The position numbers and the translations under genes are program-made. From Candidatus Poribacteria bacterium (GTDB lineage Bacteria; Poribacteria; WGA-4E; WGA-3G): a DNA stretch of 64,000 bases. The stretch spans positions 1,553,371-1,617,370 of the forward strand of contig OY282386.1 in NCBI GenBank assembly GCA_958295945.1, given 5' to 3'. The notes under the pieces are model-generated. The model was given only the letters and a program-made list of their open reading frames with translations, searched no databases and had not been told where the DNA came from. This document shows, in pieces, positions 24,569 to 40,743 of this stretch. How positions within the stretch are numbered: the stretch's first letter is position 1; every line of letters starts with the position of its first letter.

Positions 24569-25588
24569 ATGCAAACACCACAACACGTTGACCAAATGGA
24601 TGCCGATGACGTTGCTGCGATTGATGAATTACGCGATGTCTACGCCCAGTTAAAAAAAGCACTTGCGAAAATCATAATTGGTCAGGAGCAAGTCATAGAA
24701 AATCTATCAATCTGTCTATTTTCACAAGGTCATGCGCTACTTATGGGTGTCCCCGGCTTAGCAAAGACACTTTTAGTAAGAAAGTATGCAGAAACAATGG
24801 CATTGGGGTTTAGCCGCATTCAGTTCACACCTGACCTTATGCCGATGGACATCACTGGTACTGATATTCTGCAAGAGATTCCTGGTGGCAGACGCGAGTT
24901 TGAATTTGTTAAGGGACCGCTTTTTGCTAACCTAATCCTCGCGGATGAGATTAACCGTGCTCCTTCCAAAACGCAAGCAGCAATGCTTGAGGCGATGCAG
25001 GAACACAAAATCACGGTAATTGGCAGAACCTATCAGTTAGATCCTCCGTTCTTCGTATTAGCTACGCAAAATCCGATTGAACAGGAAGGGACATATCCGC
25101 TACCAGAGGCACAATTAGACCGATTCATGTTTAGAATAGATGTGGATTATCCTGAGCGTTCTGAAGAGATCGAAATTGCTCGGACAACAACTGGCATGTC
25201 TTTGCCAGAGTTAGACCACGTCCTTACAGGTGATCATGTGATAGCGTTTCAAAATCTCGTTCGTCGTGTGCCTGTATCCGAACATATCTATGAATTCGCT
25301 GTTGATTTAGCGCGTAGTACCCGTCCTAAAAGCGATGCTGCGCCTGATTGGCTGAAACCGCTTGTAGCTTGGGGTGCTGGTCCTCGTGCAGTCCAATATC
25401 TTATCCTCGGTGCGAAGGCACGTGCAGCACTCAGTGGTAGTTATATGGCGCGCCTTGAAGATGTAGTCGCAGTAGCAAATCCGGTACTTGCACACCGCGT
25501 TATCACATCCTTTGCTGCCGAATCCGAAAATATCACAAGCCAAGATATCGTTGAACGTCTTGTTGAAGAGTTGTCTGAGCAGGGGTAA
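24569..25588 (+). CDS. MoxR-family AAA+ ATPase
   Basis: The product has 339 residues. Walker A is GVPGLAKT at about 60-67, Walker B is LILADEINRA, and FVLATQNPIEQEGTYPLPEAQLDRF is the sensor-1 and lid signature of MoxR ATPases. They act as chaperones that help insert metals or cofactors or assemble vWA-domain complexes, and are usually encoded next to a DUF58 protein and vWA membrane proteins, as here. It is the first gene of a long plus-strand block; the DUF58 start follows 3 nt after its stop. Its promoter region contains the heptamer array. Confidence 0.95.
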   Translation: MQTPQHVDQMDADDVAAIDELRDVYAQLKKALAKIIIGQEQVIENLSICLFSQGHALLMGVPGLAKTLLVRKYAETMALGFSRIQFTPDLMPMDITGTDILQEIPGGRREFEFVKGPLFANLILADEINRAPSKTQAAMLEAMQEHKITVIGRTYQLDPPFFVLATQNPIEQEGTYPLPEAQLDRFMFRIDVDYPERSEEIEIARTTTGMSLPELDHVLTGDHVIAFQNLVRRVPVSEHIYEFAVDLARSTRPKSDAAPDWLKPLVAWGAGPRAVQYLILGAKARAALSGSYMARLEDVVAVANPVLAHRVITSFAAESENITSQDIVERLVEELSEQG

Positions 25589-25591
25589 ACT

Positions 25592-26497
25592 ATGGCACTG
25601 CAACTCAAACGAGATTATCTCAATCAGAAGGTCCTGGAACGTCTCTCAACTTTACAACTACATGCTCGGTTACCGATGATAGGGAATGTGTCCGGTAAAC
25701 ATCGGAGTCCCATTCGTGGTTCAAGCCTTGAATTCGCAGAGTACCGTAAGTATGTGCCGGGTGATGATACCCGTAGATTGGATTGGCGTGCTTATGCTCG
25801 GAATGATCGCTATTACATCAAAGAATTTGAGGCAGACACAAACCTACGTTTATGTCTAATCGTTGATACCAGCGGATCTATGGGATTCGCATACAATGGT
25901 ATAAGCAAACTTGACTATGCGCGTCGTATCGGTGGTACATTAGCCTATATCGCCGCGCTGCAGGGTGATGCTGTCGGTCTCTACTGTGCAGGTACACAGT
26001 TCCACAAAGAAATCCCACCCAAGCGGAGTGCTACACACCTTAGTTTGGTTCTTGATGAACTCGGTTCTGTAGAACCTTCGGGTGAAACAGGTTTAGTTGA
26101 AGTGCTCCACCAAACCGCTGAACGCATCTCACAACGTGCGTTAATTATCATCATTTCCGATCTCTTCTTTGAGCCTGAAGTGGCAAGAAACTGCTTTGAG
26201 CACCTGCGATTCCGTAAGCACGATGTAGCAGTTTTTCATCTAATGGAGCAGAGCGAACTTGATTTTGAGTTTGATCGTCCCATGCGATTTGTTGATTTAG
26301 AGGGTGGTGAACCCGTATTAGCGGATCCAATTATTATCGGTGATCAGTATCGTCGTGCAATTGAAACGTATATTGAGAGCATGAACGAAGTTATCCGTGA
26401 CACCGAGATTGACTACAATCGTATCTGTATTGACGAAGATTACGGAGACGTATTAGCGAAATTCCTCCTGAGTAGAACTCCGAAAAAACGTGCCTAA
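25592..26497 (+). CDS. DUF58 (vWA-like) domain protein
   Basis: The product has 301 residues and is cytosolic. GSSLEFAEYRKYVPGDDTRR and LDWRAYARNDRYYIKEFEAD are the DUF58 signature. A vWA-type metal site follows in LIVDTSGSMGF (D-x-S-G-S), and IIISDLFFEPE is the later strand. These proteins are partners of MoxR and may deliver the ATPase to its targets. The gene begins 3 nt after moxR; the AGGGG before the moxR stop is its ribosome site. The block then has a 179-bp gap (26498-26676) with imperfect inverted arms (GGCGGTCAGTAGTCGGCTG and CTGACAGCTGAAAGCCGAT) and no gene. Confidence 0.93.
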   Translation: MALQLKRDYLNQKVLERLSTLQLHARLPMIGNVSGKHRSPIRGSSLEFAEYRKYVPGDDTRRLDWRAYARNDRYYIKEFEADTNLRLCLIVDTSGSMGFAYNGISKLDYARRIGGTLAYIAALQGDAVGLYCAGTQFHKEIPPKRSATHLSLVLDELGSVEPSGETGLVEVLHQTAERISQRALIIIISDLFFEPEVARNCFEHLRFRKHDVAVFHLMEQSELDFEFDRPMRFVDLEGGEPVLADPIIIGDQYRRAIETYIESMNEVIRDTEIDYNRICIDEDYGDVLAKFLLSRTPKKRA

Positions 26498-26676
26498 ATG
26501 GCTGTTGGCGGTCAGTAGTCGGCTGTCTTAAAGTAGATAAACCTAGTCAATAAAAAAGATAATACCCAAAAAGATAAATACACTTAATTTACTAATACGG
26601 CACATCAAATAAATACTAACTGTATGCCGAATAAACTGAAAACTGACAGCTGAAAGCCGATTGCTGAGAGCAAATT

Positions 26677-28689
26677 ATGAATTTTTTGCAACCTTTAATG
26701 CTTATAGCACTCCCACTGATGTTATTACCGGTCATCATTCACCTAATCAATCAACAACGGCACCGAACTATGCCGTGGGCAGCGATGATGTTTCTGATGA
26801 CTGCGAAACGCATGAGCAGAGGTATGGCACGCATTCGTCACATTCTTATATTACTCATGCGCACCCTTGCTATCGCTGCTTTAATATTTGCCATTAGCCG
26901 CCCCTTATCTGGCGGATGGTTAGGAAGTATTGGTTTAGCTAAACCCGATGTAACTATGGTTCTGCTTGACCGATCCGCAAGTATGGAAGCACAAGACCTG
27001 CAGGCTGGTGAATCTAAAAGATCTACTGGACTAAAAAGACTGGCACAATTGCTGGAACAAGGAGATTACGGAACACACTTGATTTTGATTGACGGTGCCA
27101 CAGGACAACTGCATGAAGTAGATTCACCGAAGGCACTGTTAAGTTTGCCAATGACTGAAGCGACTGCAACCAGTTCCAATATACCGGGTATGTATGAAAC
27201 TGCTCTGACCTATCTTAAGACAAACAATTCTGGACGCGCAGACGTATGGCTCTGTTCAGATTTGCAAGAAAGTGATTGGACTGTTGAAAGCGGACGTTGG
27301 GATGCATTGCGTGAAGAATTTGCCTTATTAGATGGTGTGCATCATTTCCTGCTTGCCTATGCAACGCCACCTTCAGATAACTTATCTGTTCGAGTAAAAA
27401 ACGTACTGCGGTGGCAACGCGGTAACGAAGCAGAACTGATTCTTGATGTGATGGTTCGTGCTGAAGGCAACACTGCTGCAATACGACAAGTCCCGATTGA
27501 GTTTGAAGTCAACAACATTCGTTCTGTGGTGGAAGTTGAACTTGATGTGCGTGGTGCATCTTTAAAAGGACATCGTATTCCAATTGACGGGGAACTTACC
27601 TCAGGATGGGGGTCTGTTGGGTTACCGGGAGATGCCAACCCGTTGGACAACCGATTTTACTTCGTATTTTCTGAACCCCCGGTACGCAAATCGGTTATTG
27701 TCAGCGATGATGCAAGCATTGGTGAATCATTCCGACGCGCCCTTGATATACCACCAGATTCTCGACTTCAACATCAAGCAGATGTAGTGTCTGTGAACCG
27801 TGTTGGAGAAATCGACTGGGAAAATACAGGGTTATTGATCTGGCAGGCTGCTTTGCCTAACGGGTTAGCGGCAGAACAGATTCAGAATTTTGTCAACAGT
27901 GGACGGGTCGTTATTTTCTTCCCACCGAGTCAGCAGAATGCGGGTGACAACATGTATGATACCCGTTGGAGTGACTGGCAGAATCCGAGTGATGGTCAAC
28001 TTTTCAATGTCTCATGGTGGCGTAGCGATGCAGATTTATTGGCACGTGCAGAAAGTGGTGATTCCCTGCCACTGAACGAACTCCGCACCTATCGTTATCG
28101 TTCCCTTGAGAGTAGCGGAACAACGTTAGCAAGGTATGGTGCTGATATTCCACTATTAACCCGTATAAATACTGATCGTGGTGGTGCATATTTTTGTAGC
28201 ACGCTACCGACGGCACAATACTCTTCCCTTGAACGTGATGGTGTGGTGTTTTATGTCATGCTGCAACGTGCGTTAGCTGAAGGGTGTCGTGCATTGGCTG
28301 AGGCATCTCAACGGGATGCTGCACCTGATGCTCTGACTGATCGGGAACAGTGGAAAGCAGTCGCTCCCGAAGGCGATACAGTTTCTGTATCACAACGTGG
28401 TATGCATGCAGGTGTCTACCGAGATGAGACATATTGGGTAGCGGTGAATCGTAGTGAAACTGAAGATACTGCTAAAGCTGCCGGAGTAGAGGCTGTTGAC
28501 GCGCTGTTTAATGGCATATCATATCGGAGAATAGATGTAGAGGTGGGGGATACCTCCTCCTTAGCGAATGAACTCTGGCGTATCTTCCTCATCGCGATGC
28601 TGGTGGCACTGATTGTGGAAGCGGTTTTGAGTTTGCCGAGTAAGCGGGTTGAGAGTGAGCCGATTGGTGATTTTGCGGCTGCGGATTGA
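26677..28689 (+). CDS. BatA-like membrane protein with vWA domain
   Basis: The product has 670 residues. The N-terminal BatA/aerotolerance-type region is clear: FLQPLMLIALPLMLLPVIIH, INQQRHRTMPWAAMMFL, and a second helix (LILLMRTLAIAALIFAISRP). A vWA domain follows with the metal motif VLLDRSASMEAQ and ADVWLCSDLQESDW. The middle part looks like beta-sandwich domains and a glutamine amidotransferase-like segment (LLIWQAALPNGLAAEQIQNF), and a final helix (LWRIFLIAMLVALIVEAVLS) anchors the C-terminus. It is a likely substrate or partner of the MoxR/DUF58 pair. The next gene, a STAND NTPase, starts 27 nt on. Confidence 0.88.
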   Translation: MNFLQPLMLIALPLMLLPVIIHLINQQRHRTMPWAAMMFLMTAKRMSRGMARIRHILILLMRTLAIAALIFAISRPLSGGWLGSIGLAKPDVTMVLLDRSASMEAQDLQAGESKRSTGLKRLAQLLEQGDYGTHLILIDGATGQLHEVDSPKALLSLPMTEATATSSNIPGMYETALTYLKTNNSGRADVWLCSDLQESDWTVESGRWDALREEFALLDGVHHFLLAYATPPSDNLSVRVKNVLRWQRGNEAELILDVMVRAEGNTAAIRQVPIEFEVNNIRSVVEVELDVRGASLKGHRIPIDGELTSGWGSVGLPGDANPLDNRFYFVFSEPPVRKSVIVSDDASIGESFRRALDIPPDSRLQHQADVVSVNRVGEIDWENTGLLIWQAALPNGLAAEQIQNFVNSGRVVIFFPPSQQNAGDNMYDTRWSDWQNPSDGQLFNVSWWRSDADLLARAESGDSLPLNELRTYRYRSLESSGTTLARYGADIPLLTRINTDRGGAYFCSTLPTAQYSSLERDGVVFYVMLQRALAEGCRALAEASQRDAAPDALTDREQWKAVAPEGDTVSVSQRGMHAGVYRDETYWVAVNRSETEDTAKAAGVEAVDALFNGISYRRIDVEVGDTSSLANELWRIFLIAMLVALIVEAVLSLPSKRVESEPIGDFAAAD

Positions 28690-28716
28690 AGAATAGACAT
28701 ATATTAGGAGGATAAA

Positions 28717-31700
28717 ATGAGTATTGAAACCATTTTTTCCGTAAAAAATGAACATCTTAGTCGACTTGATCAAAAGACATCAGTAGAATTTTTTCAGAAG
28801 CTGCTTTGGGCAGAAGCTCGAAGACTTGGAGTGAAAATTAGCAAGATTAATGTTTCCAATTGGGTTAATGTCCCTGACGGTGGCGTTGATGCTAATGTAA
28901 ATGATGCACAAATAGCAGTGGGACAAGGGGTAATTAAACAAGGCAAAACAAGCTATCAAATTAAATCTGGAGACACGTTTGAACCGTGGCAAGAGGCAGT
29001 TATCAGGAAAGAACTTTTTAGAAATAAAACACCTGAACAGCAGAATCTTGGTGAAAGTGTTAGAGCGTGCCTTGATGAAAACGGTACTTATATTTTAGTT
29101 TGCACTGGCATTGATCCTACAGAACTCCAACGAGAAAAGGCACGTTCTCATATTGAAGATTACTTTAAACTATGTGATTGTCCAAAGCCCAAAGTTGAGG
29201 TGTTCACTCAGAGCAACCTGAAGGGTTTTCTTGAGGTGTTTCCATCATTAGCATTGTTGGTTAATGGAAATGCCAGGGCTACTTTTCAAACGCATCAGAG
29301 TTGGTCTGAAGATGCAACTATGCGGCTGCCATTTGTTTCAGGTGAAGCACAGAAAGATCAGATTTTAGAAATCCAAGATGAATTAAGACAAAACAACGAT
29401 ACAGTGCACCTACGCGTATTAGGTGAACCTGGCATCGGAAAAACTAAACTTGTCTTAGAAGCAACGAAAGTTGATGATTTATCTTCACATGTTGTTTACT
29501 GTATCGCTGCTCAATTTCGGGACAGTATCTTGATGAATGAAATTCTCAGAGATGATAATGGTTTTTCTGCCATTTTAATTATAGATGAATGTAACCAAGA
29601 CAGTAGATCATATATCTGGAATAAACTAAAACATCGCGGTTCAAGGATTAAATTGATCACTATCTATAATGATTATGAGGAAAAATCTGGAGATATTAAC
29701 TACTATGATGCCCCACCGCTGGACAACGAACAAATTAGTAGCATTATTCAGAATTATATAAATATATCCAATGCTGAAGCGAGCAGATGGTCTGAACTCT
29801 GTAGTGGTTCTCCAAGAGTTGCACATGTCATCGGTGAAAATTTAGTAAATCATCCAGAAGATTTGCTTAAACCTCCCGGAACAGTTGATATCTGGGAACG
29901 TTATATTGTTGCGGGTGATGATCCAAATAGCGAACAGACAGAACAACACAGATTGCTACTTCAATATCTTGCACTTTTTAAGCGGTTCGGATATGAGCGA
30001 TCCGTAGCTTCGGAGGCAGAAGAAATTGAGAAAAAAGTTAAGGAAGCCGACAATCGAATTACTTCGGACAAATTTAAATCAATAATCCACCGACTCAGGG
30101 AGCGGAAAATTCTTCAAGGTGAGTTTACGCTCTACATTACTCCAAAAGCACTTCATATTAAACTATGGACACAGTGGTGGGAAATTCATCGTACGACATT
30201 CAACCTTGAAGGATTCATTCAGAATATAAAACCAGAATTAGTTGAGTGTTTCTATGATATGTTTGTCTATGCAGCAGAATCAGAAGTGACATCAGAAGTA
30301 GTCAAGGAACTTCTTGGACCAAATGGTCCTTTCCGGGATAATGAAAATCTGAAAACAAGGTTGGGTAGTCGTTTTTTTCTTGCACTGACTGAAGCAGATC
30401 CAGATTCTGCTTTAAGATGTTTGATACGAACGATAGGCACTTGGGATAAAGACAACCTTTTGGAATTTACAAAGGGTCGGAGGAACGTGGTATGGGCACT
30501 TGAAAAGATTGCTATATGGCAAAAGTTGTTCCCCGATGCAGCAAGATTGCTCCTTGCACTCGGCGAAGCGGAAAATGAAAGAATTGCAAACAATGCAAGC
30601 GGAGTGTTTGCTGAACTTTTCTCATTAGGACCGGGCGCAGTAGCCCCTACAGAAGCATCGCCTATAGAACGTTTACCTGTCTTGAAAGAAGCATTTGAAT
30701 CGGGATCAAAAGAACGACGAAAGCTGGCATTGAACGCCTGCAATAAAGGTTTGCAGGCGGATCATTTTTCACGGATTTCTGGTGCAGAAAATCAAGGACT
30801 ACGTGGAACACCTAAACTCTGGAATCCCAAAACATACGATGAGTGGTGGGATGCCTACCGTCAAATTTGGCAACTCTTATTTCAACAATTAGAGTATTTG
30901 CCTGAAGATGAACGTGAAGAAGCTGTAGAAATAATGCTTGGACGGGCAGGAGCGATTGCTAGGATTCGCAAATTAAGTGATATGGTTGTGGACACAGTCA
31001 GAAGAATTACTGAAAACAGATATGCAAACGAAAAACAGATTATTGAGACAATAAGCCAAATTTTGTTTCATGATGATTCTTATGTGGACAATAAAGGTCT
31101 ACCACCCGAAATTAGACAGAGTTTTGAAAAAATTCGAGACGAATTAATTGGATCTGATTTCCACTCGCTTATGCAACGGTATGTTGGGTTAGATCTTCTT
31201 GAAGACGAACTTATAGAACATAGGGATGGCGTTAATCCTACTCAACCTTATCTTGAAGAACTCGTTGAGCAATCTATAGAAAATCCTAGACTATTGGAAT
31301 CAGAATTATCATGGCTCGTGACTACCGAAGCAAAGAATGGAAATAGGTTTGGGTTTTCACTCGGGCAGAGAGATGAGTCCCTTTCGCTTTTACCAACGCT
31401 TCTTAATGCTCAACGAGACGCGGGAGACAACACAAGCCCTTATTTCCTAGGTGGTTATTTTCATGCTATCTTTGAAAAGGACTTGGCACAATGGGAACAA
31501 CAACTTGACGCACTCTGTGCGGATACTACGCTTAACACAATAGTTCCATCACTCACACATTACTCGGGTCTAACCGATCAAGCAGGATATAGAATTCTCA
31601 AATTGGCAGAGAACGGTATTATTAATATTGATGAATTTGAAATATTCAAATACAAGAACTCGCTTATCAGTCTATCCAAGAGTGCATTTCAATCTTGGAT

Positions 31701-32535
31701 AGAATTTCTTTTGATTAATACCGATAAGTCAGCTATAGACATTGCACTAAACCTATTCTATAATTACTATATACTACGAAAATCAGACTACACGTTACCA
31801 TACGATTTTACGTTCCGTCTCCTTTCACATCCAGAACTGTTTAAAGAATCTGATGATTCTCGGTATGATACAATGACTGATTTCTATTGGACAGAAACAG
31901 CAAAAGTTTTCTTATCACTACATCCACGCAAGGCTTTAGAGATAGTCCAACTCATGTTAGTTTCCTTTGGAAGCGATAAAACGATTTTTGATTCTTTCTC
32001 ACAAAGTTGCTCTTTTCTTACTGAAGCGACCAAAAAACACCCCGCGGAGGTTTGGGAGTACGTTAGTAAATACTTGGGCAGTAAAGATAATTTTTCAAGA
32101 ACTTTATCCATAGGAAACTGGCTTAGAGAAACTGACCTTTCAGAATCAGAAAAAGAAAAAGGGGCATTAACCTTAATCCCTCGCGAAAATATCTGGGAAT
32201 GGGTTGATAGAGACGTGGAAAATCGCGCATGGTATCTTGCCAGCGAATTTGTTCCCAAAACCCTTTTGTTAGAAGAATGGCAAGATTCGTTAGCACGCGA
32301 TCTTCTTGTAAGATATGGAGATCGAGAAGACGTTAGAAGTACATTGATATCAAATTATTCAACAGAAAGTTTCTGGGGACCTGCTAGTTTACACTATGAT
32401 GAGAAACTAGAAAAATTAATTGACATTCAGAATATTGACAGAAACAACAATGTGAATCGTTGGATTAACGAATTTTTAACCTTTCTTGAAGAGCAAATTG
32501 AACATTCAAAGATCCGCGAAGAAAGAATGTCTTAA
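28717..32535 (+). CDS. Avs-like STAND NTPase with N-terminal nuclease-like domain
   Basis: The product has 1272 residues and a strong ribosome site (AGGAGG, 28706-28711). The first 110 residues contain NVPDGGVDANVND (Asp58) and SYQIKSGDTFEPW (Q81-I-K83), the D-x(n)-Q/E-x-K pattern of Mrr/Cap4-type nucleases. Walker A is LGEPGIGKT at about 235-243 and Walker B is ILIIDEC at about 286-292. From 400 onwards the protein is helical and repeat-like with no recognised domain, as in the sensor part of antiviral STAND (Avs) proteins. That architecture suggests a prokaryotic immune sensor in which target binding triggers DNA cleavage. It lies between two vWA-type genes of the MoxR cluster, has no link to them in function that I can see, and by eye is more AT-rich. 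I am confident of the ATPase and less so of the nuclease. Confidence 0.7.
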   Translation: MSIETIFSVKNEHLSRLDQKTSVEFFQKLLWAEARRLGVKISKINVSNWVNVPDGGVDANVNDAQIAVGQGVIKQGKTSYQIKSGDTFEPWQEAVIRKELFRNKTPEQQNLGESVRACLDENGTYILVCTGIDPTELQREKARSHIEDYFKLCDCPKPKVEVFTQSNLKGFLEVFPSLALLVNGNARATFQTHQSWSEDATMRLPFVSGEAQKDQILEIQDELRQNNDTVHLRVLGEPGIGKTKLVLEATKVDDLSSHVVYCIAAQFRDSILMNEILRDDNGFSAILIIDECNQDSRSYIWNKLKHRGSRIKLITIYNDYEEKSGDINYYDAPPLDNEQISSIIQNYINISNAEASRWSELCSGSPRVAHVIGENLVNHPEDLLKPPGTVDIWERYIVAGDDPNSEQTEQHRLLLQYLALFKRFGYERSVASEAEEIEKKVKEADNRITSDKFKSIIHRLRERKILQGEFTLYITPKALHIKLWTQWWEIHRTTFNLEGFIQNIKPELVECFYDMFVYAAESEVTSEVVKELLGPNGPFRDNENLKTRLGSRFFLALTEADPDSALRCLIRTIGTWDKDNLLEFTKGRRNVVWALEKIAIWQKLFPDAARLLLALGEAENERIANNASGVFAELFSLGPGAVAPTEASPIERLPVLKEAFESGSKERRKLALNACNKGLQADHFSRISGAENQGLRGTPKLWNPKTYDEWWDAYRQIWQLLFQQLEYLPEDEREEAVEIMLGRAGAIARIRKLSDMVVDTVRRITENRYANEKQIIETISQILFHDDSYVDNKGLPPEIRQSFEKIRDELIGSDFHSLMQRYVGLDLLEDELIEHRDGVNPTQPYLEELVEQSIENPRLLESELSWLVTTEAKNGNRFGFSLGQRDESLSLLPTLLNAQRDAGDNTSPYFLGGYFHAIFEKDLAQWEQQLDALCADTTLNTIVPSLTHYSGLTDQAGYRILKLAENGIINIDEFEIFKYKNSLISLSKSAFQSWIEFLLINTDKSAIDIALNLFYNYYILRKSDYTLPYDFTFRLLSHPELFKESDDSRYDTMTDFYWTETAKVFLSLHPRKALEIVQLMLVSFGSDKTIFDSFSQSCSFLTEATKKHPAEVWEYVSKYLGSKDNFSRTLSIGNWLRETDLSESEKEKGALTLIPRENIWEWVDRDVENRAWYLASEFVPKTLLLEEWQDSLARDLLVRYGDREDVRSTLISNYSTESFWGPASLHYDEKLEKLIDIQNIDRNNNVNRWINEFLTFLEEQIEHSKIREERMS

Positions 32536-32559
32536 CACATTCGGAGACACAAAGAAAAC

Positions 32560-34767
32560 ATGCAAGACACACAAGGACACCTTGAATTCTTTTCCAACAG
32601 TTCTGTTATAACTTTGGGAGTCATTATTATCATTGTAACCGCTGCATTGTGCTGGTATGCATGGCATCGCAGTGGATATCGCAAACGTATCGGGTGGCTT
32701 GAACTACTCCGGTTCGTCCTCGTCTGCCTTGTGATTCTCACCCTCAATCAACCCGAATGGTTAGAATCACAACCACCAGAACTACGATCTACGCTTGCTG
32801 TACTTTGGGATAAATCTAATAGCATGAAAACCGAGGACATTCTTGTAGACCCGGACACCACCGTTGAACGAAAAAGTCGTGCAGAAACGATACAACCACT
32901 AATGTCTGAAGAGGCATGGAAATCTGCAGATGATACGGAACTAAATGTTGTATTTGAATCGTTCTCATCACGCTTAGCCCCCGCAGAAGAAGGAACAGAT
33001 ATTAACGCAGGACTGACACACATTCTGGAAAATCACAATAATCTGCGTGGTGTAGTGCTGCTCTCGGATGGCGATTGGAATGTTGGGGATTCACCTGAGA
33101 AAGCTGCAACTCGGTTCCACATGAAAGAGGTTCCCGTTTTCACCGTAGGTGTCGGCAGTGAAGTGCCATTACCCGATCTTGAGTTAGTTAGTATGGACGC
33201 GCCAACTTACGGGGTAACAAAGAAACAACTCCGCATTCCGTTTGTCGTTCGCAACACTTTAGGCCAAGACAGAGACGTGAATCTCACATTGAGCATCAAT
33301 GGGGAAGCCACGACTACTAAAACCATTACAGTTCCTGCTATGGGACAAGCACAAGATAATATGGCTTGGACACCACAAGATACAGGTGAATATGACATAT
33401 CCTTGCGAATTGCGAAAGATATTCAGGAGTTGATCCCAGAAAATAATGAACTTTCTGCTCCCATATCTATTCGCAAGGAACAGTTGAAAATCCTTGTCAT
33501 AGATTCTTTTCCGCGTTGGGAGTATCGTTATCTACGGAACGCTCTTGAACGCGATGCGGGTGTTGATGTAACGTGCCTGTTATTTCATCCTAAATTGCCA
33601 CAGGTTGGTGGAGGACGTGCTTATATCAAGCGGTTTCCTGATGCCAGAGAACTCAGCAAATTTGACGTAGTGTTTCTTGGAGATGTAGGTATTGCTCCGG
33701 ATCAGTTGACGACTGAACAAGCACAGGATTTACGACAACTTGTCAGTGCACAAGCATCGGGTATCGTCTTTTTACCCGGACGCACGGGGGCACATGAATC
33801 ATTAACTACCGGTCCGCTTGCCGATCTATATCCTGTCGTTTTAGACCCAGTCACACCGAACGGTGTCGGCTCAAGTGTCCAAGGATATTTCGCTCTCACC
33901 GAACCCGGGCAACGAAGTTTGTTGACGCGTCTCGGAGATACCGATATTGGAAATAGTGATGTGTGGCGCACGTTACCGGGTTTCTTCTGGTATGCTGGCA
34001 TAAGACGTGCGAAAGCAGGAACAGAAGTATTGGCTGTACACGATCAAGCTTCCACAGTGTCTGGACGTGTGCCACTCATCGTTACGAAAACGTATGGCAC
34101 AGGTAAAGTGCTGTTCATGGGAACGGACAGTGCATGGCGTTGGCGGCATGGTGTTGAAGACAAATACCACTACCGTTTCTGGAGTCAAGTGGCACGTTGG
34201 ATGGCATATCGACGACAGATGGCGCAGAGTGAATTGATACGAATGTTTTACTCTCCTGACCGACCTCATGTTGATGATGTTCTTACCTTAAACGCAAATG
34301 TAATTGACAACTTCGGTGGACCACTGGAAAGAGGGACAGTCGTGGTGCAAGCAATTGCTCCTTCTGGTAAAACAGAGACAATCCGACTGCAACCGGGTGT
34401 AGAAGATGCGTTAGGATTGTTCATCGGCACTTTTACTCCGAAAGAAGCAGGGATCTATCGTCTTGTAGCGACCAGTAGTGAAACAGGGGCATCCGTTCAA
34501 ACTGAGCTTTCCGTGCAAGGCTTAAATCGGGAACAACAAGGACGACTGGCACGGTTTGATGTCTTAGAAGAAATCGCAAATATCACTGGAGGAAAATTAG
34601 TTTCAGTTTCTGAGGTAGGGACATTACAAGAACATCTCGCTGCCCTACCAGAACCCGAACCGATTGTTAAACGGACGCGTATCTGGGCAAATCCGTATTG
34701 GGGTGGTTTACTGATCTTGCTGCTTGGATTATTCTGGGTTGCACGTAAAATGGCAGGTACGATATGA
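32560..34767 (+). CDS. Membrane vWA/GATase-like protein of the MoxR cluster
   Basis: The product has 735 residues. Two N-terminal helices (VITLGVIIIIVTAALCWYAW and LELLRFVLVCLVILTL) are followed by a vWA-like domain with LAVLWDKSNSMKTED and GVVLLSDGDWNVGDSP. Then come a beta domain (PDLELVSMDAPTYGVTKKQL), a class I glutamine amidotransferase-like region (LKILVIDSFPRWEYRYLRNA; VVFLGDVG; GIVFLPG), and a C-terminal helix (YWGGLLILLLGLFWVARKM). Such proteins accompany BatA-like genes in MoxR clusters and are probably envelope proteins. It lies just after the STAND gene and before the HsdR-N-like gene. Confidence 0.83.
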   Translation: MQDTQGHLEFFSNSSVITLGVIIIIVTAALCWYAWHRSGYRKRIGWLELLRFVLVCLVILTLNQPEWLESQPPELRSTLAVLWDKSNSMKTEDILVDPDTTVERKSRAETIQPLMSEEAWKSADDTELNVVFESFSSRLAPAEEGTDINAGLTHILENHNNLRGVVLLSDGDWNVGDSPEKAATRFHMKEVPVFTVGVGSEVPLPDLELVSMDAPTYGVTKKQLRIPFVVRNTLGQDRDVNLTLSINGEATTTKTITVPAMGQAQDNMAWTPQDTGEYDISLRIAKDIQELIPENNELSAPISIRKEQLKILVIDSFPRWEYRYLRNALERDAGVDVTCLLFHPKLPQVGGGRAYIKRFPDARELSKFDVVFLGDVGIAPDQLTTEQAQDLRQLVSAQASGIVFLPGRTGAHESLTTGPLADLYPVVLDPVTPNGVGSSVQGYFALTEPGQRSLLTRLGDTDIGNSDVWRTLPGFFWYAGIRRAKAGTEVLAVHDQASTVSGRVPLIVTKTYGTGKVLFMGTDSAWRWRHGVEDKYHYRFWSQVARWMAYRRQMAQSELIRMFYSPDRPHVDDVLTLNANVIDNFGGPLERGTVVVQAIAPSGKTETIRLQPGVEDALGLFIGTFTPKEAGIYRLVATSSETGASVQTELSVQGLNREQQGRLARFDVLEEIANITGGKLVSVSEVGTLQEHLAALPEPEPIVKRTRIWANPYWGGLLILLLGLFWVARKMAGTI

Positions 34768-34941
34768 TACTCCGCTTCTACTGAATTGTTCCTCTTTGTT
34801 TGATCTTCTCATGGAAATTTCTCATAATAACTGTTATCATACTGACAATTGAACAAAACACACCACGGGAAGAGGCTACCGTTTAACTTTGAATCATTTT
34901 AATCAAAAACAATTTAGATTTATTGGAGATATAAAACGTTA

Positions 34942-35931
34942 ATGACACTTGTAGAAGATATTGATGATATACGTAATAATTTAGAAAAAAACGCATATAA
35001 AGATGAGGCTGCTGTTACCAATAGTATTGTAAATAGGTTGCTTCATGCGTTGAAATGGCCTACGTTCAATCCTAAAATTATCATCCATGAATATTCAGTA
35101 GAGAATCGGAGAGTTGACTTGGCACTTTGTCATCCACCAGAAAATCCCATCATTTTTATTGAAGTTAAGCAGGTTGGAAACATTCAAGGAGCAGAGAAGC
35201 AGCTGTTTGAATATGCTTTTATTGAAGGGGTTCCTATTGTTGTTCTTACTGATGGACAGAAATGGCGTTTTTTTCACCCCGCAGGTACCGGGAATTATAA
35301 AGACCGTCTGGTTCACGAATTGGATCTTATCAGTGGAAAAAGTGATGAAATTTCCGAACGTCTAAACAGATACCTAAATTATGAAAATGTAAAGACAGAA
35401 GAGGTGGTGCAAGTTATTGCTGAAGACTATCAGAATATCGTCTATGAAAGACTGATCCAAAAAGGATTACCAAAGGCATGGAACCTTTTAATAAGAGAAC
35501 ATGATGAATTTCTACTAGAAATAATTGTAGAAAAGACAATAGAAATTTGTGGTAAGCGTCCTACTCCAGAGCACGTGATAACATTTCTGCAAAACCTATC
35601 GCAGCTACCAGTAGAGCAAAAACCTACCCCAAATGTGGATGTTGTTGATAAGCAACCAAGGCACACCTATGAATATGCTGGAGAGCATTTAACAGGAAAG
35701 TTGGCAAGACCTCTTATTATAGAATTATTTGGAGATAAAGGTAAAATAAAAAAGCAGGATATTATAAAGGTAGTAACTCAAACTCATAGAGATCGCGGAG
35801 GATTGGACGCAAATGCTGCAATTGATCAACTTTTCAATAGTGCATTGCAAGGTCTTGAAAAACAAAGTTCTGCGAAAAATATTGAGAAAGGATCAGGTAT
35901 TTGGGAAGTGTACAAAGATCCGAAGAAATAA
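34942..35931 (+). CDS. HsdR-N-like PD-(D/E)XK protein
   Basis: The product has 329 residues. The N-terminal 150 residues match the type I restriction HsdR-N fold: EAAVTNSIVNRLLHALKWP, then NRRVDLALCHPPENPIIFIE (Asp59, Glu74) and VKQVG (Lys76), then GVPIVVLTDGQKWRFF. The second half, PRHTYEYAGEHLTGKLARPL and onwards, looks like a small winged-helix region. No helicase, methyltransferase or specificity gene is adjacent. It lies 29 bp before the DarT-macro fusion gene on the same strand, so the two are probably co-transcribed. Whether it acts as a nuclease or as a structural partner is not known. Confidence 0.65.
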   Translation: MTLVEDIDDIRNNLEKNAYKDEAAVTNSIVNRLLHALKWPTFNPKIIIHEYSVENRRVDLALCHPPENPIIFIEVKQVGNIQGAEKQLFEYAFIEGVPIVVLTDGQKWRFFHPAGTGNYKDRLVHELDLISGKSDEISERLNRYLNYENVKTEEVVQVIAEDYQNIVYERLIQKGLPKAWNLLIREHDEFLLEIIVEKTIEICGKRPTPEHVITFLQNLSQLPVEQKPTPNVDVVDKQPRHTYEYAGEHLTGKLARPLIIELFGDKGKIKKQDIIKVVTQTHRDRGGLDANAAIDQLFNSALQGLEKQSSAKNIEKGSGIWEVYKDPKK

Positions 35932-35960
35932 AATAAATATTTCTGACAATAGGTAAAACC

Positions 35961-37130
35961 ATGCCAAAATTAGACATAAGAGAACTCTACTACATTACGC
36001 ACATAGACAATCTACCATCCATCCTTGCACACGGTGTCTTGTCTCACGCAAAGATGGAATCAGAAGGCGTACATGCTACACCTATTTATGATGCAGATAT
36101 CGTTAGCAAACGCAATCATATAATGACTCCTGATAAAAGTAATCTCTGGTCTTACGCTAATCTCTACTTTCAACCACGCAATGCAATGATGTATCGTGTT
36201 GTCCATGAAAAAGAATCCAAAAACCTTGCTGTTGTCGGTGTAAGTCCAAAGGTGTTGACTGAACAAGATGCTTTTATCACGGATGGGAATGCCGCACACG
36301 AAACAACACAATTTTACTATCCTTCCAAAGGTCTGGAAATGCTTCGACAACAGTGGTCAATAATCAAAAACGATTGGTGGAATAGAGATGACGGTTCCAA
36401 ACGTAAAATTATGGCAGAATGTCTAATTCCCAAACATGTCAAACCTGAATATATTCAAAATATCTATGTTGCAAACAATTCAGTACGAGATGCAATTCAG
36501 AAAAATATTGGAGATGTTAATATTGCTGTTAGTTCCGAACCCGATATGTTTTTCCAACCGGACAGCCGGACAAAAATAGGAGACAACATTTCTTTAATTG
36601 ATGGGGATATGTTCTTCTCTAACTTACAGACATTGACAATCAGCGTAAATCTACAAGGGGTCATGGGAAAGGGTTTAGCTTCGCGTGCGAAATACCAATT
36701 TCCCGATGTTTATGTAGCATATCAAGATGTGTGTAGAGCAAAACGCATCACAGCGACAAGACCGCATCTCTATAAGCGTGAAAGTTCATTAGATGAGGAA
36801 TTGGCTGATGTTGGAGCACCACTTATTGCCCCGAATGCTGTAAAGTGGTTTCTGCTTTTCGCAACAAAACGTCATTGGAAAAACAACTCACGCTTGGACG
36901 ATATTGAAGGTGGTCTTGCCTGGGTTCGCGACAATTATCAAACACAAGGAATTCAATCTCTTGCAATGCCTGCACTCGGTTGTGGATTAGGAGGACTTGA
37001 TTGGAAAAAGGTCGGTCCCTTGATGTGCAAATATTTACACGGAATCAACATATCGGTCGCAATATATCTTCCACGAGAACACCAAATTGAGACACAATAT
37101 AAAACAGCATCACATTTACTATCACTTTAA
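35961..37130 (+). CDS. DarT-DarG fusion: DUF4433 ADP-ribosyltransferase plus macrodomain
   Basis: The product has 389 residues and joins a toxin domain to an antitoxin domain. Residues 1-205 match DarT (DUF4433), which ADP-ribosylates thymidine in single-stranded DNA: YYITHIDNLPSILAHGVLSH, SKRNHI with Arg51, LYFQPRNAMMYRV, ITDGNAA, and KIMAECLIP with the catalytic-type Glu153. Residues 208-375 match the DarG macrodomain, which removes that mark: ISLIDGDMF, VNLQGVMGKGLASRAKYQFP, FATKRHWKNNSRLDDIEGGL, and AMPALGCGLGGLDW. Key residues appear present in both halves, so the fusion could both write and erase. In known DarTG systems these are usually two genes, the toxin first. It follows the HsdR-N-like gene by 29 bp. 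Confidence 0.85.
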   Translation: MPKLDIRELYYITHIDNLPSILAHGVLSHAKMESEGVHATPIYDADIVSKRNHIMTPDKSNLWSYANLYFQPRNAMMYRVVHEKESKNLAVVGVSPKVLTEQDAFITDGNAAHETTQFYYPSKGLEMLRQQWSIIKNDWWNRDDGSKRKIMAECLIPKHVKPEYIQNIYVANNSVRDAIQKNIGDVNIAVSSEPDMFFQPDSRTKIGDNISLIDGDMFFSNLQTLTISVNLQGVMGKGLASRAKYQFPDVYVAYQDVCRAKRITATRPHLYKRESSLDEELADVGAPLIAPNAVKWFLLFATKRHWKNNSRLDDIEGGLAWVRDNYQTQGIQSLAMPALGCGLGGLDWKKVGPLMCKYLHGINISVAIYLPREHQIETQYKTASHLLSL

Positions 37131-37176
37131 TGGGAACTGACTTTTTTATTAAAAGTCGCACTAAAGGAGAACTTCA

Positions 37177-40100
37177 ATGAACCAAACACCATCACAAAAT
37201 AACGGGGTAAATCTACCCCCAAGAATGAAAAAAGCATTAGAACAATACAAAAAACGGGTATGGATCATCAAACTTGCCGAAGGCACATTAGCAGCGATCT
37301 TTGGACTCATCGTTTCATATCTCATTGTGTTTGGCTTAGACCGGTTGATTGATACCTCTGCCCTTCTGCGCGCACTCATCCTGATAGTCGGCATGGGCGG
37401 TATGGTAATTTTCCTGCCACTGAAATACTACAAATGGGTGTGGCGAAATCGGCAATTAGAAGGCATTGCCAAACTATTGCAACATAAGTTCCCCCGTTTT
37501 GGTGATCATGTGCTTGGTATCGTAGAACTTGCATCGGAAAAGTCAGATCAATCATCAAGTCCGGCGTTGGTTGCAGCCGCAATGCGTCAAGTTGATGAAG
37601 AGGTTGCCAAACACAATCTCAAAGATGCTGTGCCGAATCCTCGCCACCGACGTTGGGCATTGGCAGTAGGTTTACCAATGCTCCTTGTCATCATTGGGAT
37701 AGTCATTATCCCGGCAACGACTAACAACACCTTAGCACGGTGGCTAACCCCGTGGCGAAACGTTGAACGATGGACATTTGCACAATTAAAGGGCAAACCA
37801 GATCCACGCGTCGTCGCCTACGCTGAACCCTTTGATGTTGAAACACAACTGAAAGATGAATCCCCATGGAAACCTGAAACCGCTGAAGCACGATACGCGA
37901 AGCAAGAACCTGTAGTCGCCGAACGAGATGGATCTACTTACAAATTTCAACTGCCACCGCAAACAGAGAAAGGAAAAGTCAAGATGCGGGTGGGAGATGC
38001 AAGACGTTCCATCCCCGTTGAACCGAAATTACGCCCGGCACTCAAGGAACTTATTGCAAACGTCCAACTCCCCGACTATCTACTACGTGAAGAACCGAGA
38101 GTAGATGATGTACGCGGTGGCATAGTTAGCTTAGTCCAAGGCAGTTCCGCCACCTTGCAAGCGACAATCACACGAGAAATCTCAGAAGCAACGTTAAATA
38201 ACCGTCCACAGAAAGTGGATGGAGCAAAAATAACAACAGAACCAATTGCCGTGGAAAAAACAACAGAGATGGAATTAACATGGCGTGATCAATACGGACT
38301 CACTGCAAGTGAACCACAGGTAGTGCAATTTGAACTACAAGAAGATGCTGAACCAACGATTGCTATCACGAAGCTAAAAAACAATCAAGTTGTGCTTTCT
38401 ACAGAAGTGCTCACATTTGAAATCCAATCAGCGGATGACTTTGGTGTGAAACAGGTCGGTATAGAATGGGAAGGTATTGAGAATCCAATCCAAAACCCAG
38501 AACCGGCAATCGGAGAGAAAGCCGTGTCCTCAGGGTCGCCAATATCGGAATCACTAATCGTTCCCGCGACATTCTCCGTTGAACGTGAAAATATACCACC
38601 ACAAAGTCTGCGTCTGCGTGCTTTTGCGGAGGATTATTTTCCTAACCGTGAACGTATCCGTTCACCACAAATTGTGCTCCACGTGCTTTCCCCATCAGAA
38701 CACTTCAAGTGGTTAATCGGACAGATGCAGCTCTGGGCAGGTGCAGCAAAGGATGTACACGATAAAGAATTGCAATTACACGAAACCAATCGTGAAATCC
38801 AAGACCTACCACCTGAAGCACTTGACGATCCAGCCCAACGTAAAAAATTACAGGAACAAGCTGCATCAGAACGTGCTAATGCCGCAAAACTTGATAGTCT
38901 CATTGAAAGCGGTAAAGAGTTGGTCCAGGAAGCTGCAAAAAACAGTGAGTTTGACGCAGAACAGCTCCAATCTTGGGGAGACATGCTCAAACAATTAGAG
39001 GAGATAGCAGGGAAGCAGATGCCTTCTGTTGCAAATTTACTTGCACAAGCATCCGAAGCACAAGGACAGAGCAGCCAAAAACCATCAGATAGCAGTCAGC
39101 AAAGTCCATCTTCCTCAAGTAGTAGCAGTCAACAATCGCCAAGCGAAAACCAAGATGAACAGCAGCAAAACCAAGCATCAAACGGACAATCTCAGCAGTC
39201 TGACCAACAACAGAAAGATTCAGAACAACAACAAAACCAAGCATCGGGTAATAAATCACAATCTTCTGGCAAACCACAGGAAGGTTCAGGAGACGATACG
39301 AAAAAGTATGGACCTGATAGTTTTGTGCCACCTGAAGGGACAGACGCGGAATCTGAGGATCCTGAAGATCCGAACAAACGTCCCGATTCTGTCAGTGTGA
39401 ATCGGAGTAAACCACCACAAGGAGGCGAACAAGGTAAACCTTCACCCACGAATCCAACACCTGGACTTTCCGATGTGGAATCGGGTTTCAACAAACCTGA
39501 GAAACCAACTGAAGCACCACCATCACAGGTCGTTGGTGGATTAGCCATCCCTAATACGACGTTGATGGGTAGCGGCAGAGAAGATGAAGGTGAAGATGAA
39601 AACGCAGAATCACCTCCTGCTGAAGAACTCGTGGTACAAGCTGTTGAAGAACAGAAGGAATTGTTGGACGCTTTTGATAAACTATCAGACGAGATGAAAA
39701 AACTTTTGGTCAGTTTTGAAAATAGCACATTCGTGAAACGATTGAAGGCAGCCTCACGAAGGCAAATTGACATCGCTACAGATCTCAACAAAATTGACAC
39801 CTTCGGATTGTCTGACAGAGGCACAAAAAATCGAGATGTCCGGAAACGTTTAGCCGAAATGGAATCCAATGAATCCAAAAAGGTAACCACCATCATTCAA
39901 GATATGGCAGCCTATACTGATCGTCGTCCTAATGATAACTACCTACGTGTCCTGGCAGAGATGGAAGACGCTTCTGTATCAAACCAGATGAGCGAACTTG
40001 TCAGATCAATCAACAGAAATTATGTCGGGCAATCTACAATTGAAGCAGAATACTGGGCGGATACGTTGGATAGATGGGCTGAACAGTTAGTAGACCCATT

Positions 40101-40743
40101 ACCCGATGCCCCGCCTCCAGAAGGCGGAATGATGGAACTGCCAAGTTTGCCACCTGAAATTGTTTTAGAGGTGTTGCGTATCATCAATCGTGAAATTCAA
40201 TTACGCGAGGAAACGCGCGAAACTGAAAACGCAAAAGACACGCTCAATTCCGATAAATATTATGCGCGAAGCGAAGGTCTGAGCGATACACAATACGAAA
40301 TCGCCGAGGATACACTTGAGGTGGCAAGACAGATAAGTCTGTTACCAGAGTTTAATACACGACGTATCAGACAGCAATACGCCAAAGTCAGTGCTGCAGC
40401 TGAGGTGATGGAGGAAGCAGAGACAATCCTTGCCAAACCTGAAACAGGTCCCGAAGCAATCGCAGCTATATCGGAAGTGATTGAAATCCTACTTCAAACG
40501 CAACGCATGCCAAATACACCTAGTGGCGGAGGAGGCGGTGGTGACACGCCAGGTGGAAGTGGAAATGTCTTTGCACAATTAGTTTCTGCAATGACACTCG
40601 GAAGTGGCAGAGGAGACGACTCAGGTCAGGCATTTATTGAAAAACGCGCACCGAAACAAGCAATAGGCAAAACTGGGCGCGTACTACCAGAAGAATTCAG
40701 GCAAGGATTAGACGCATATTTCAATGTCTTAGAAGGCAACTAA
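37177..40743 (+). CDS. DUF4175-type membrane protein
   Basis: The product has 1188 residues with a good ribosome site (AAAGGAGAA). Two N-terminal hydrophobic segments (LAAIFGLIVSYLIVFGL; ALILIVGMGGMVIFLPL) and a third (VGLPMLLVIIGIVIIP) precede a large soluble part. A low-complexity Ser/Gln-rich stretch (39060-39260; SSQQSPSSSSSSSQQ) splits two helical regions, and the end is Gly-rich (PSGGGGGGDTPGG). DUF4175 proteins commonly follow MoxR-DUF58-BatA genes in Planctomycetes-like genomes, so this is the natural next gene of the cluster and was separated from it by the inserted defence-like genes. Several long frames on the opposite strand here are shadows. Confidence 0.8.
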   Translation: MNQTPSQNNGVNLPPRMKKALEQYKKRVWIIKLAEGTLAAIFGLIVSYLIVFGLDRLIDTSALLRALILIVGMGGMVIFLPLKYYKWVWRNRQLEGIAKLLQHKFPRFGDHVLGIVELASEKSDQSSSPALVAAAMRQVDEEVAKHNLKDAVPNPRHRRWALAVGLPMLLVIIGIVIIPATTNNTLARWLTPWRNVERWTFAQLKGKPDPRVVAYAEPFDVETQLKDESPWKPETAEARYAKQEPVVAERDGSTYKFQLPPQTEKGKVKMRVGDARRSIPVEPKLRPALKELIANVQLPDYLLREEPRVDDVRGGIVSLVQGSSATLQATITREISEATLNNRPQKVDGAKITTEPIAVEKTTEMELTWRDQYGLTASEPQVVQFELQEDAEPTIAITKLKNNQVVLSTEVLTFEIQSADDFGVKQVGIEWEGIENPIQNPEPAIGEKAVSSGSPISESLIVPATFSVERENIPPQSLRLRAFAEDYFPNRERIRSPQIVLHVLSPSEHFKWLIGQMQLWAGAAKDVHDKELQLHETNREIQDLPPEALDDPAQRKKLQEQAASERANAAKLDSLIESGKELVQEAAKNSEFDAEQLQSWGDMLKQLEEIAGKQMPSVANLLAQASEAQGQSSQKPSDSSQQSPSSSSSSSQQSPSENQDEQQQNQASNGQSQQSDQQQKDSEQQQNQASGNKSQSSGKPQEGSGDDTKKYGPDSFVPPEGTDAESEDPEDPNKRPDSVSVNRSKPPQGGEQGKPSPTNPTPGLSDVESGFNKPEKPTEAPPSQVVGGLAIPNTTLMGSGREDEGEDENAESPPAEELVVQAVEEQKELLDAFDKLSDEMKKLLVSFENSTFVKRLKAASRRQIDIATDLNKIDTFGLSDRGTKNRDVRKRLAEMESNESKKVTTIIQDMAAYTDRRPNDNYLRVLAEMEDASVSNQMSELVRSINRNYVGQSTIEAEYWADTLDRWAEQLVDPLPDAPPPEGGMMELPSLPPEIVLEVLRIINREIQLREETRETENAKDTLNSDKYYARSEGLSDTQYEIAEDTLEVARQISLLPEFNTRRIRQQYAKVSAAAEVMEEAETILAKPETGPEAIAAISEVIEILLQTQRMPNTPSGGGGGGDTPGGSGNVFAQLVSAMTLGSGRGDDSGQAFIEKRAPKQAIGKTGRVLPEEFRQGLDAYFNVLEGN

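Follow-up and report, generated by a model that had tools for sequence, protein, structure and literature searches.

The window analyzed here, a 64,000-nucleotide stretch of DNA from Candidatus Poribacteria, carries at positions 35961 to 37130 (forward strand) a gene in which DarT is followed by a DarG-type macrodomain in one chain. The fused architecture is already known, and on sequence grounds the poribacterial gene is best assigned to the single-chain DarTG2-type modules of the Thermosipho africanus kind. The preferred reading, to which a probability of about 0.7 is given, is that the product would act as a writer and eraser of the DarTG2 type, held in check by hydrolysis in cis, and would block replication when removal lags, most plausibly on phage replication. 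This reading starts from the fusion itself, its conserved sites, the selection acting on it, the missing DarG domain and the gene neighborhood, and from these we infer the activity, the hydrolytic control, the trigger and the anti-phage role.

The fused protein and its known relatives

The reading frame is open throughout its 389 codons, from ATG to TAA, and this single ORF, together with the Pfam and PADLOC matches, confirms the original prediction that both proteins are joined in one chain. The DarT (thymidine ADP-ribosyltransferase) half comprises residues 1-200 (35961 to 36560), ends in a conserved EPxMFFQP segment and matches the full Pfam profile PF14487 with residues 10-198 (profile positions 1-201 of 201, E 9e-51, 172.8 bits versus a cut-off of 22.5) and the PADLOC DarT profile at E 1e-42; with the stricter NCBIfam equivalog NF048013 the fusion scores 110 bits, below the cut-off of 150. 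After a short linker of residues 201-208 (36561 to 36584) comes the macrodomain half, residues 209-389 (36585 to 37127), so that the macro motifs, placed from residue 208 in the prediction, begin trivially later. This half is recognized by Pfam Macro PF01661 (E 9e-6) and by the PADLOC DarG profile (E 6e-44, residues 210-381, profile positions 2-155 of 329), while the NCBIfam DarG model NF048014 is matched over positions 1-159 of 338, with 138 bits versus a cut-off of 250. The C-terminal domain of DarG, which binds DarT and mimics single-stranded DNA, is absent from the protein. When the whole genome was searched with the DarG model, the domain was found nowhere else, and the only gene returned was the fusion, hence no second DarG-like gene. 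A NADAR domain had no Pfam match in the fusion protein.

Comparison of the linker with the C-termini of split DarT proteins and the N-termini of split DarG proteins indicated that the DarT half terminates where split DarT proteins do (WYF/WYY-type C-termini) and that the macro half starts at the split-DarG start, with about 8 residues in between. In five split operons of other bacteria the DarT and DarG genes overlap or lie within about 15 nt of each other, in the same order as in the fusion, so that a simple read-through fusion with loss of the DarG tail would account for the fused gene. The original prediction named an internal start near residue 205 as the case that would speak against it, and the production of two proteins from one ORF by a start near residue 196 is very improbable. 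Met196 does fall where the lone macrodomains of related genomes have their start region, but it is replaced by Arg in L024, Leu in L031 and Phe in the T. africanus protein, it is not preceded by a Shine-Dalgarno-like sequence, and synonymous-site conservation is ordinary around it, without a local rise; the internal start was therefore dropped.

The closest relative of known structure is PDB 7OMU, "Thermosipho africanus DarTG in complex with ADP-ribose", released on 2021-06-23 and consisting of one chain of 406 residues. The paper behind this entry is presumably Schuller et al. 2021 in Nature. The T. africanus chain is a whole-length homologue that ranks first in the sequence search (E 5e-130, residues 6-378, identity about 51-54%) as well as in the fold search (E 1e-44, 51% identity over 387 columns), and the predicted model of the fusion superposes on it with a TM-score of 0.66 and an rmsd of 6.0 over the whole chain, the macro half being of low confidence in parts. 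Both proteins have DarT followed by the macrodomain, the same junction and no DarG C-terminal domain; the T. africanus protein differs in coming from another phylum and in that the crystallized chain carries Ala in place of the catalytic Glu. The search for like fusions that had been proposed thus yielded 7OMU at rank 1 plus further poribacterial copies with intact active sites, and the statement that no characterized fusion was known has been overtaken by this structure. The one-chain form is little discussed, yet a solved structure of it exists; a 2020 review still treated DarG as strictly two-component (PMC7050489).

The canonical DarTG2 systems of T. aquaticus, EPEC and M. tuberculosis share with the fusion the DarT fold with equivalents of R51 and E160, the DarG macrodomain with an equivalent of K80, and the order DarT then DarG, but they consist of two separate genes, and their DarG bears a DarT-binding C-terminal domain of about 180 aa. 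DarT1-NADAR (DarTG1) likewise pairs a DarT-family transferase with a reversing enzyme, but it is guanosine-specific and has a NADAR antitoxin, whereas the fusion protein has a macrodomain. More remote parallels are CapRel, which holds toxin and antitoxin in a single chain but consists of an unrelated enzyme and antitoxin and becomes active when phage proteins bind to it directly (PMC9712102), and human PARP14, which combines an ADP-ribosyltransferase and a hydrolytic macrodomain in one protein (PMC10499325) but acts on protein and nucleic acid targets and has a nonhomologous architecture. An apparent phage fusion (MT837167) proved to be two genes, of 211 and 342 aa, each listed record of an apparent full-length plasmid match has two annotated genes, and a search of viral contigs for the fusion gave no matches.

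The catalytic residues of both halves are in place. Arg51 (codon at 36111 to 36113) and Glu153 (36417 to 36419), which the prediction had picked out as DarT motifs, align with R51 and E160 of Thermus DarT, and N230, K237, K303 (codon at 36867 to 36869), H305, W306 and G342 align with N22, K29, K80, H82, W83 and G119 of T. aquaticus DarG. In T. aquaticus, DarT is no longer toxic as the E160A mutant, and DarG is inactive as K80A and impaired as N22A, K29E or G119E (PMC5179494); the position of E160 is the one occupied by Ala in the chains of both 7OMU and 7OMV. Arg51, Glu153 and Lys303 are retained in 18/18 other fusions of the type without a separate DarT gene (the solo fusions described below) and are hence invariant in all 19, down to about 62% identity. 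Over 28 pairs within the genus the median dN/dS of the DarT half is 0.11 and that of the macro half 0.064, so that both halves are under purifying selection and are maintained by it. A degenerate, noncatalytic toxin half is ruled out by the invariant catalytic residues and the dN/dS of 0.11. Nonsynonymous change is about twice as fast in the DarT half as in the macro half, which leaves room for altered specificity.

Distribution and history in Poribacteria

The best relatives of the gene are found in metagenome-assembled genomes, with whole-length copies 76-87% identical, and a match occurs in 44 of the 98 relatives searched. The fusions form two sets. One comprises the solo fusions, that of the window and 18 others in which both active sites are intact; the other has 13 members, and in 10 of these a stand-alone DarT is encoded directly upstream. 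In the DarT tree all poribacterial fusions and 7OMU, which falls within their clade, make up one group (support 100/98) apart from the split DarT proteins; the fusion is old and common in Poribacteria. Ten of the 13 nonsolo fusions form one clade (100/100), and the stand-alone DarT proteins of the tandems are best read as fusion-derived since they are placed within the fusion group, the long branches of this tree restricting finer claims.

The tandems of a stand-alone DarT and a DarT-macrodomain fusion are found at loci L029-L031, L033-L035, L037-L039 and L048. Their fusions mostly have about 6 extra residues beside Arg51 in the fused DarT and carry Ala or Thr in place of macrodomain Gly342; in one copy (L030) the catalytic Glu is replaced by Gly. 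The loss of Arg51 that the first multiple alignment indicated for this type is probably a shift of about one residue beside the 6-residue insertion, as an Arg is nearby in each.

Five lone macrodomains of one genus nest, in the macrodomain tree, within the solo fusions of that genus (100/95), and as judged from their sequences they represent fusions in which the toxin half was lost and the putative hydrolase kept. These orphans lie at L041 and L043-L046, and an HNH/WYL-like gene adjoins four of the five.

Other arrangements were met in the same survey. Loci L025 and L026 are near-identical upstream and in the DarT half, while their macro halves are only about 80-95% identical, the change falling near residue 220-245; this mosaic reflects either recombination within the gene or an assembly artefact. 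An ORF of 748 aa found once (L093:1739-3985, reverse strand, G020:C1) combines a macrodomain, DarT and a DarT1-type NADAR domain (PF22397, E 9e-82), so that a single DarT is flanked by the two known classes of reversing enzyme; the N-terminus of this protein bears a WD40 remnant. Another, of 965 aa (L092:2325-5222, forward strand, G058:C37), has a sigma-70 factor (regions 1.2, 2, 3 and 4) C-terminal to its two DarT domains. Furthermore, WD40-repeat proteins with a C-terminal DarT-like domain are encoded in several poribacterial genomes (L094, L095, L097 and L093:5324-7144, reverse strand).

The operon and its insertions

The fusion is inserted in a host operon of the order MoxR, DUF58, BatA, an insert, VWA, an HSDR_N-like gene, the fusion and a gene for a protein of 1188 aa (24569 to 40743, forward strand), an order repeated in relatives; in the genus of the window the fusion sits between the VWA gene and the large gene of this MoxR-DUF58-BatA-type operon. 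At this site, an intact fusion is present in 8 of 18 genomes of the genus and decayed remnants in 3; in 6 the fusion is lacking and the gap measures about 80-670 nt, and in 1 the contig ends there. Among the 8 is G015, whose fusion follows a type III R-M pair at a distance of about 7 kb from the VWA gene, with the downstream gene not seen. Its decay in three genomes and absence from the site in six indicate that the fusion is dispensable. The HSDR_N-like protein, which has a nuclease fold and 329 aa (34942 to 35931, forward strand; PF04313, E 9e-8), is encoded 29 nt upstream; none of the relatives checked has it next to the fusion, and it was rejected as a fixed third component.

The insert earlier in the operon encodes a PD-Lambda-4_A-like protein of 1272 aa, a candidate anti-phage protein (28717 to 32535, forward strand; PADLOC PDLC03991, E 4e-31), whose like occurs also in sister genomes (L006 and L139). 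Further inserts in these genomes are a type III R-M pair (L138), Eco57I-like enzymes (L005, L139) and a PDC-S57-like T5orf172 protein (L141). In this genus the MoxR/BatA-type operon serves as an insertion site for defence-like genes of various kinds, which favors, without proving, an anti-phage role of the fusion, in agreement with the split systems (PMC11481870).

Control, function and alternative readings

According to the preferred reading, the DarT half would move ADP-ribose from NAD+ onto thymidines of single-stranded DNA and the tethered macrodomain half would take it off again. In the split systems the C-terminal domain of DarG binds DarT via mimicry of single-stranded DNA (PMC11481870, PMC7003065), but in T. 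aquaticus and EPEC the macrodomain alone, via hydrolysis, suffices as antitoxin (PMC5179494, PMC7003065). As the macrodomain alone protects in these organisms and the blocking domain is absent here, the simplest reading is control by constant removal in cis, and in the fusion the antitoxin is probably the hydrolase alone. With the two activities produced 1:1 and the domain mimicking single-stranded DNA missing, hydrolysis in cis would most likely keep the resting state harmless. The trigger is most plausibly phage replication with abundant single-stranded DNA, or a phage product inhibiting the macrodomain; as removal lags, modified thymidines would build up and DNA replication would be blocked.

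The original prediction held that control must be internal, for example by a conformational switch. This does not seem forced, since hydrolysis by the macrodomain alone is a sufficient antitoxin in canonical DarTG (PMC5179494, PMC7003065) and since the linker could also be cut, which makes the fusion as such compatible with proteolytic separation. A switch in which the macrodomain or linker sterically restrains DarT until a phage product frees it would have a precedent in CapRel, where a phage protein opens the fused toxin-antitoxin (PMC9712102), and would suit the short, strongly conserved junction, where P194, F197, F198, Q199 and P200 are invariant in 31 fusions. It is nevertheless unlikely, because the macrodomain of the split systems binds DarT weakly and its K80A form is noninhibitory (PMC7003065, PMC5179494), the fusion lacks the known inhibitory domain, and FFQP is the usual DarT terminus, so that conservation of the junction need not mark a switch. 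Quite unlikely, too, is a housekeeping regulator outside defence, whose self-balanced writing and erasing would tune replication or transcription of the host, as has been argued for DarTG in M. tuberculosis (PMC12170906); one fixed operon position inherited across the genus would agree with such a regulator, but repeated decay, absence at the site and insertion beside R-M and candidate defence genes argue against it.

Apart from the hydrolytic control favored above, it may be proposed, as a tentative possibility, that the fused lineage is a self-limiting DNA-modification enzyme and not an addictive toxin-antitoxin pair. Because toxin and antitoxin live and die together, the fusion could not kill cells that lose the gene, and addiction is not expected. 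If true, this would explain the repeated free loss and the toxin-less macrodomain orphans, and the stand-alone DarT added in the tandems may restore an unbalanced toxin dose. Frequent loss fits nonaddiction, but it is equally expected for any dispensable gene.

The poribacterial gene adds modestly to a fusion of known kind, through its lack of the inhibitory domain, through the tandem and orphan relatives and through an operon that serves as a hot spot. The one-chain DarTG for which a single crystal structure exists is a form that is old and widespread in Poribacteria and does without the inhibitory domain of DarG. It allows a clean test of whether enzymatic reversal alone restrains a DNA-modifying toxin, and close relatives in the tandem, orphan and fused states can serve as natural comparisons.
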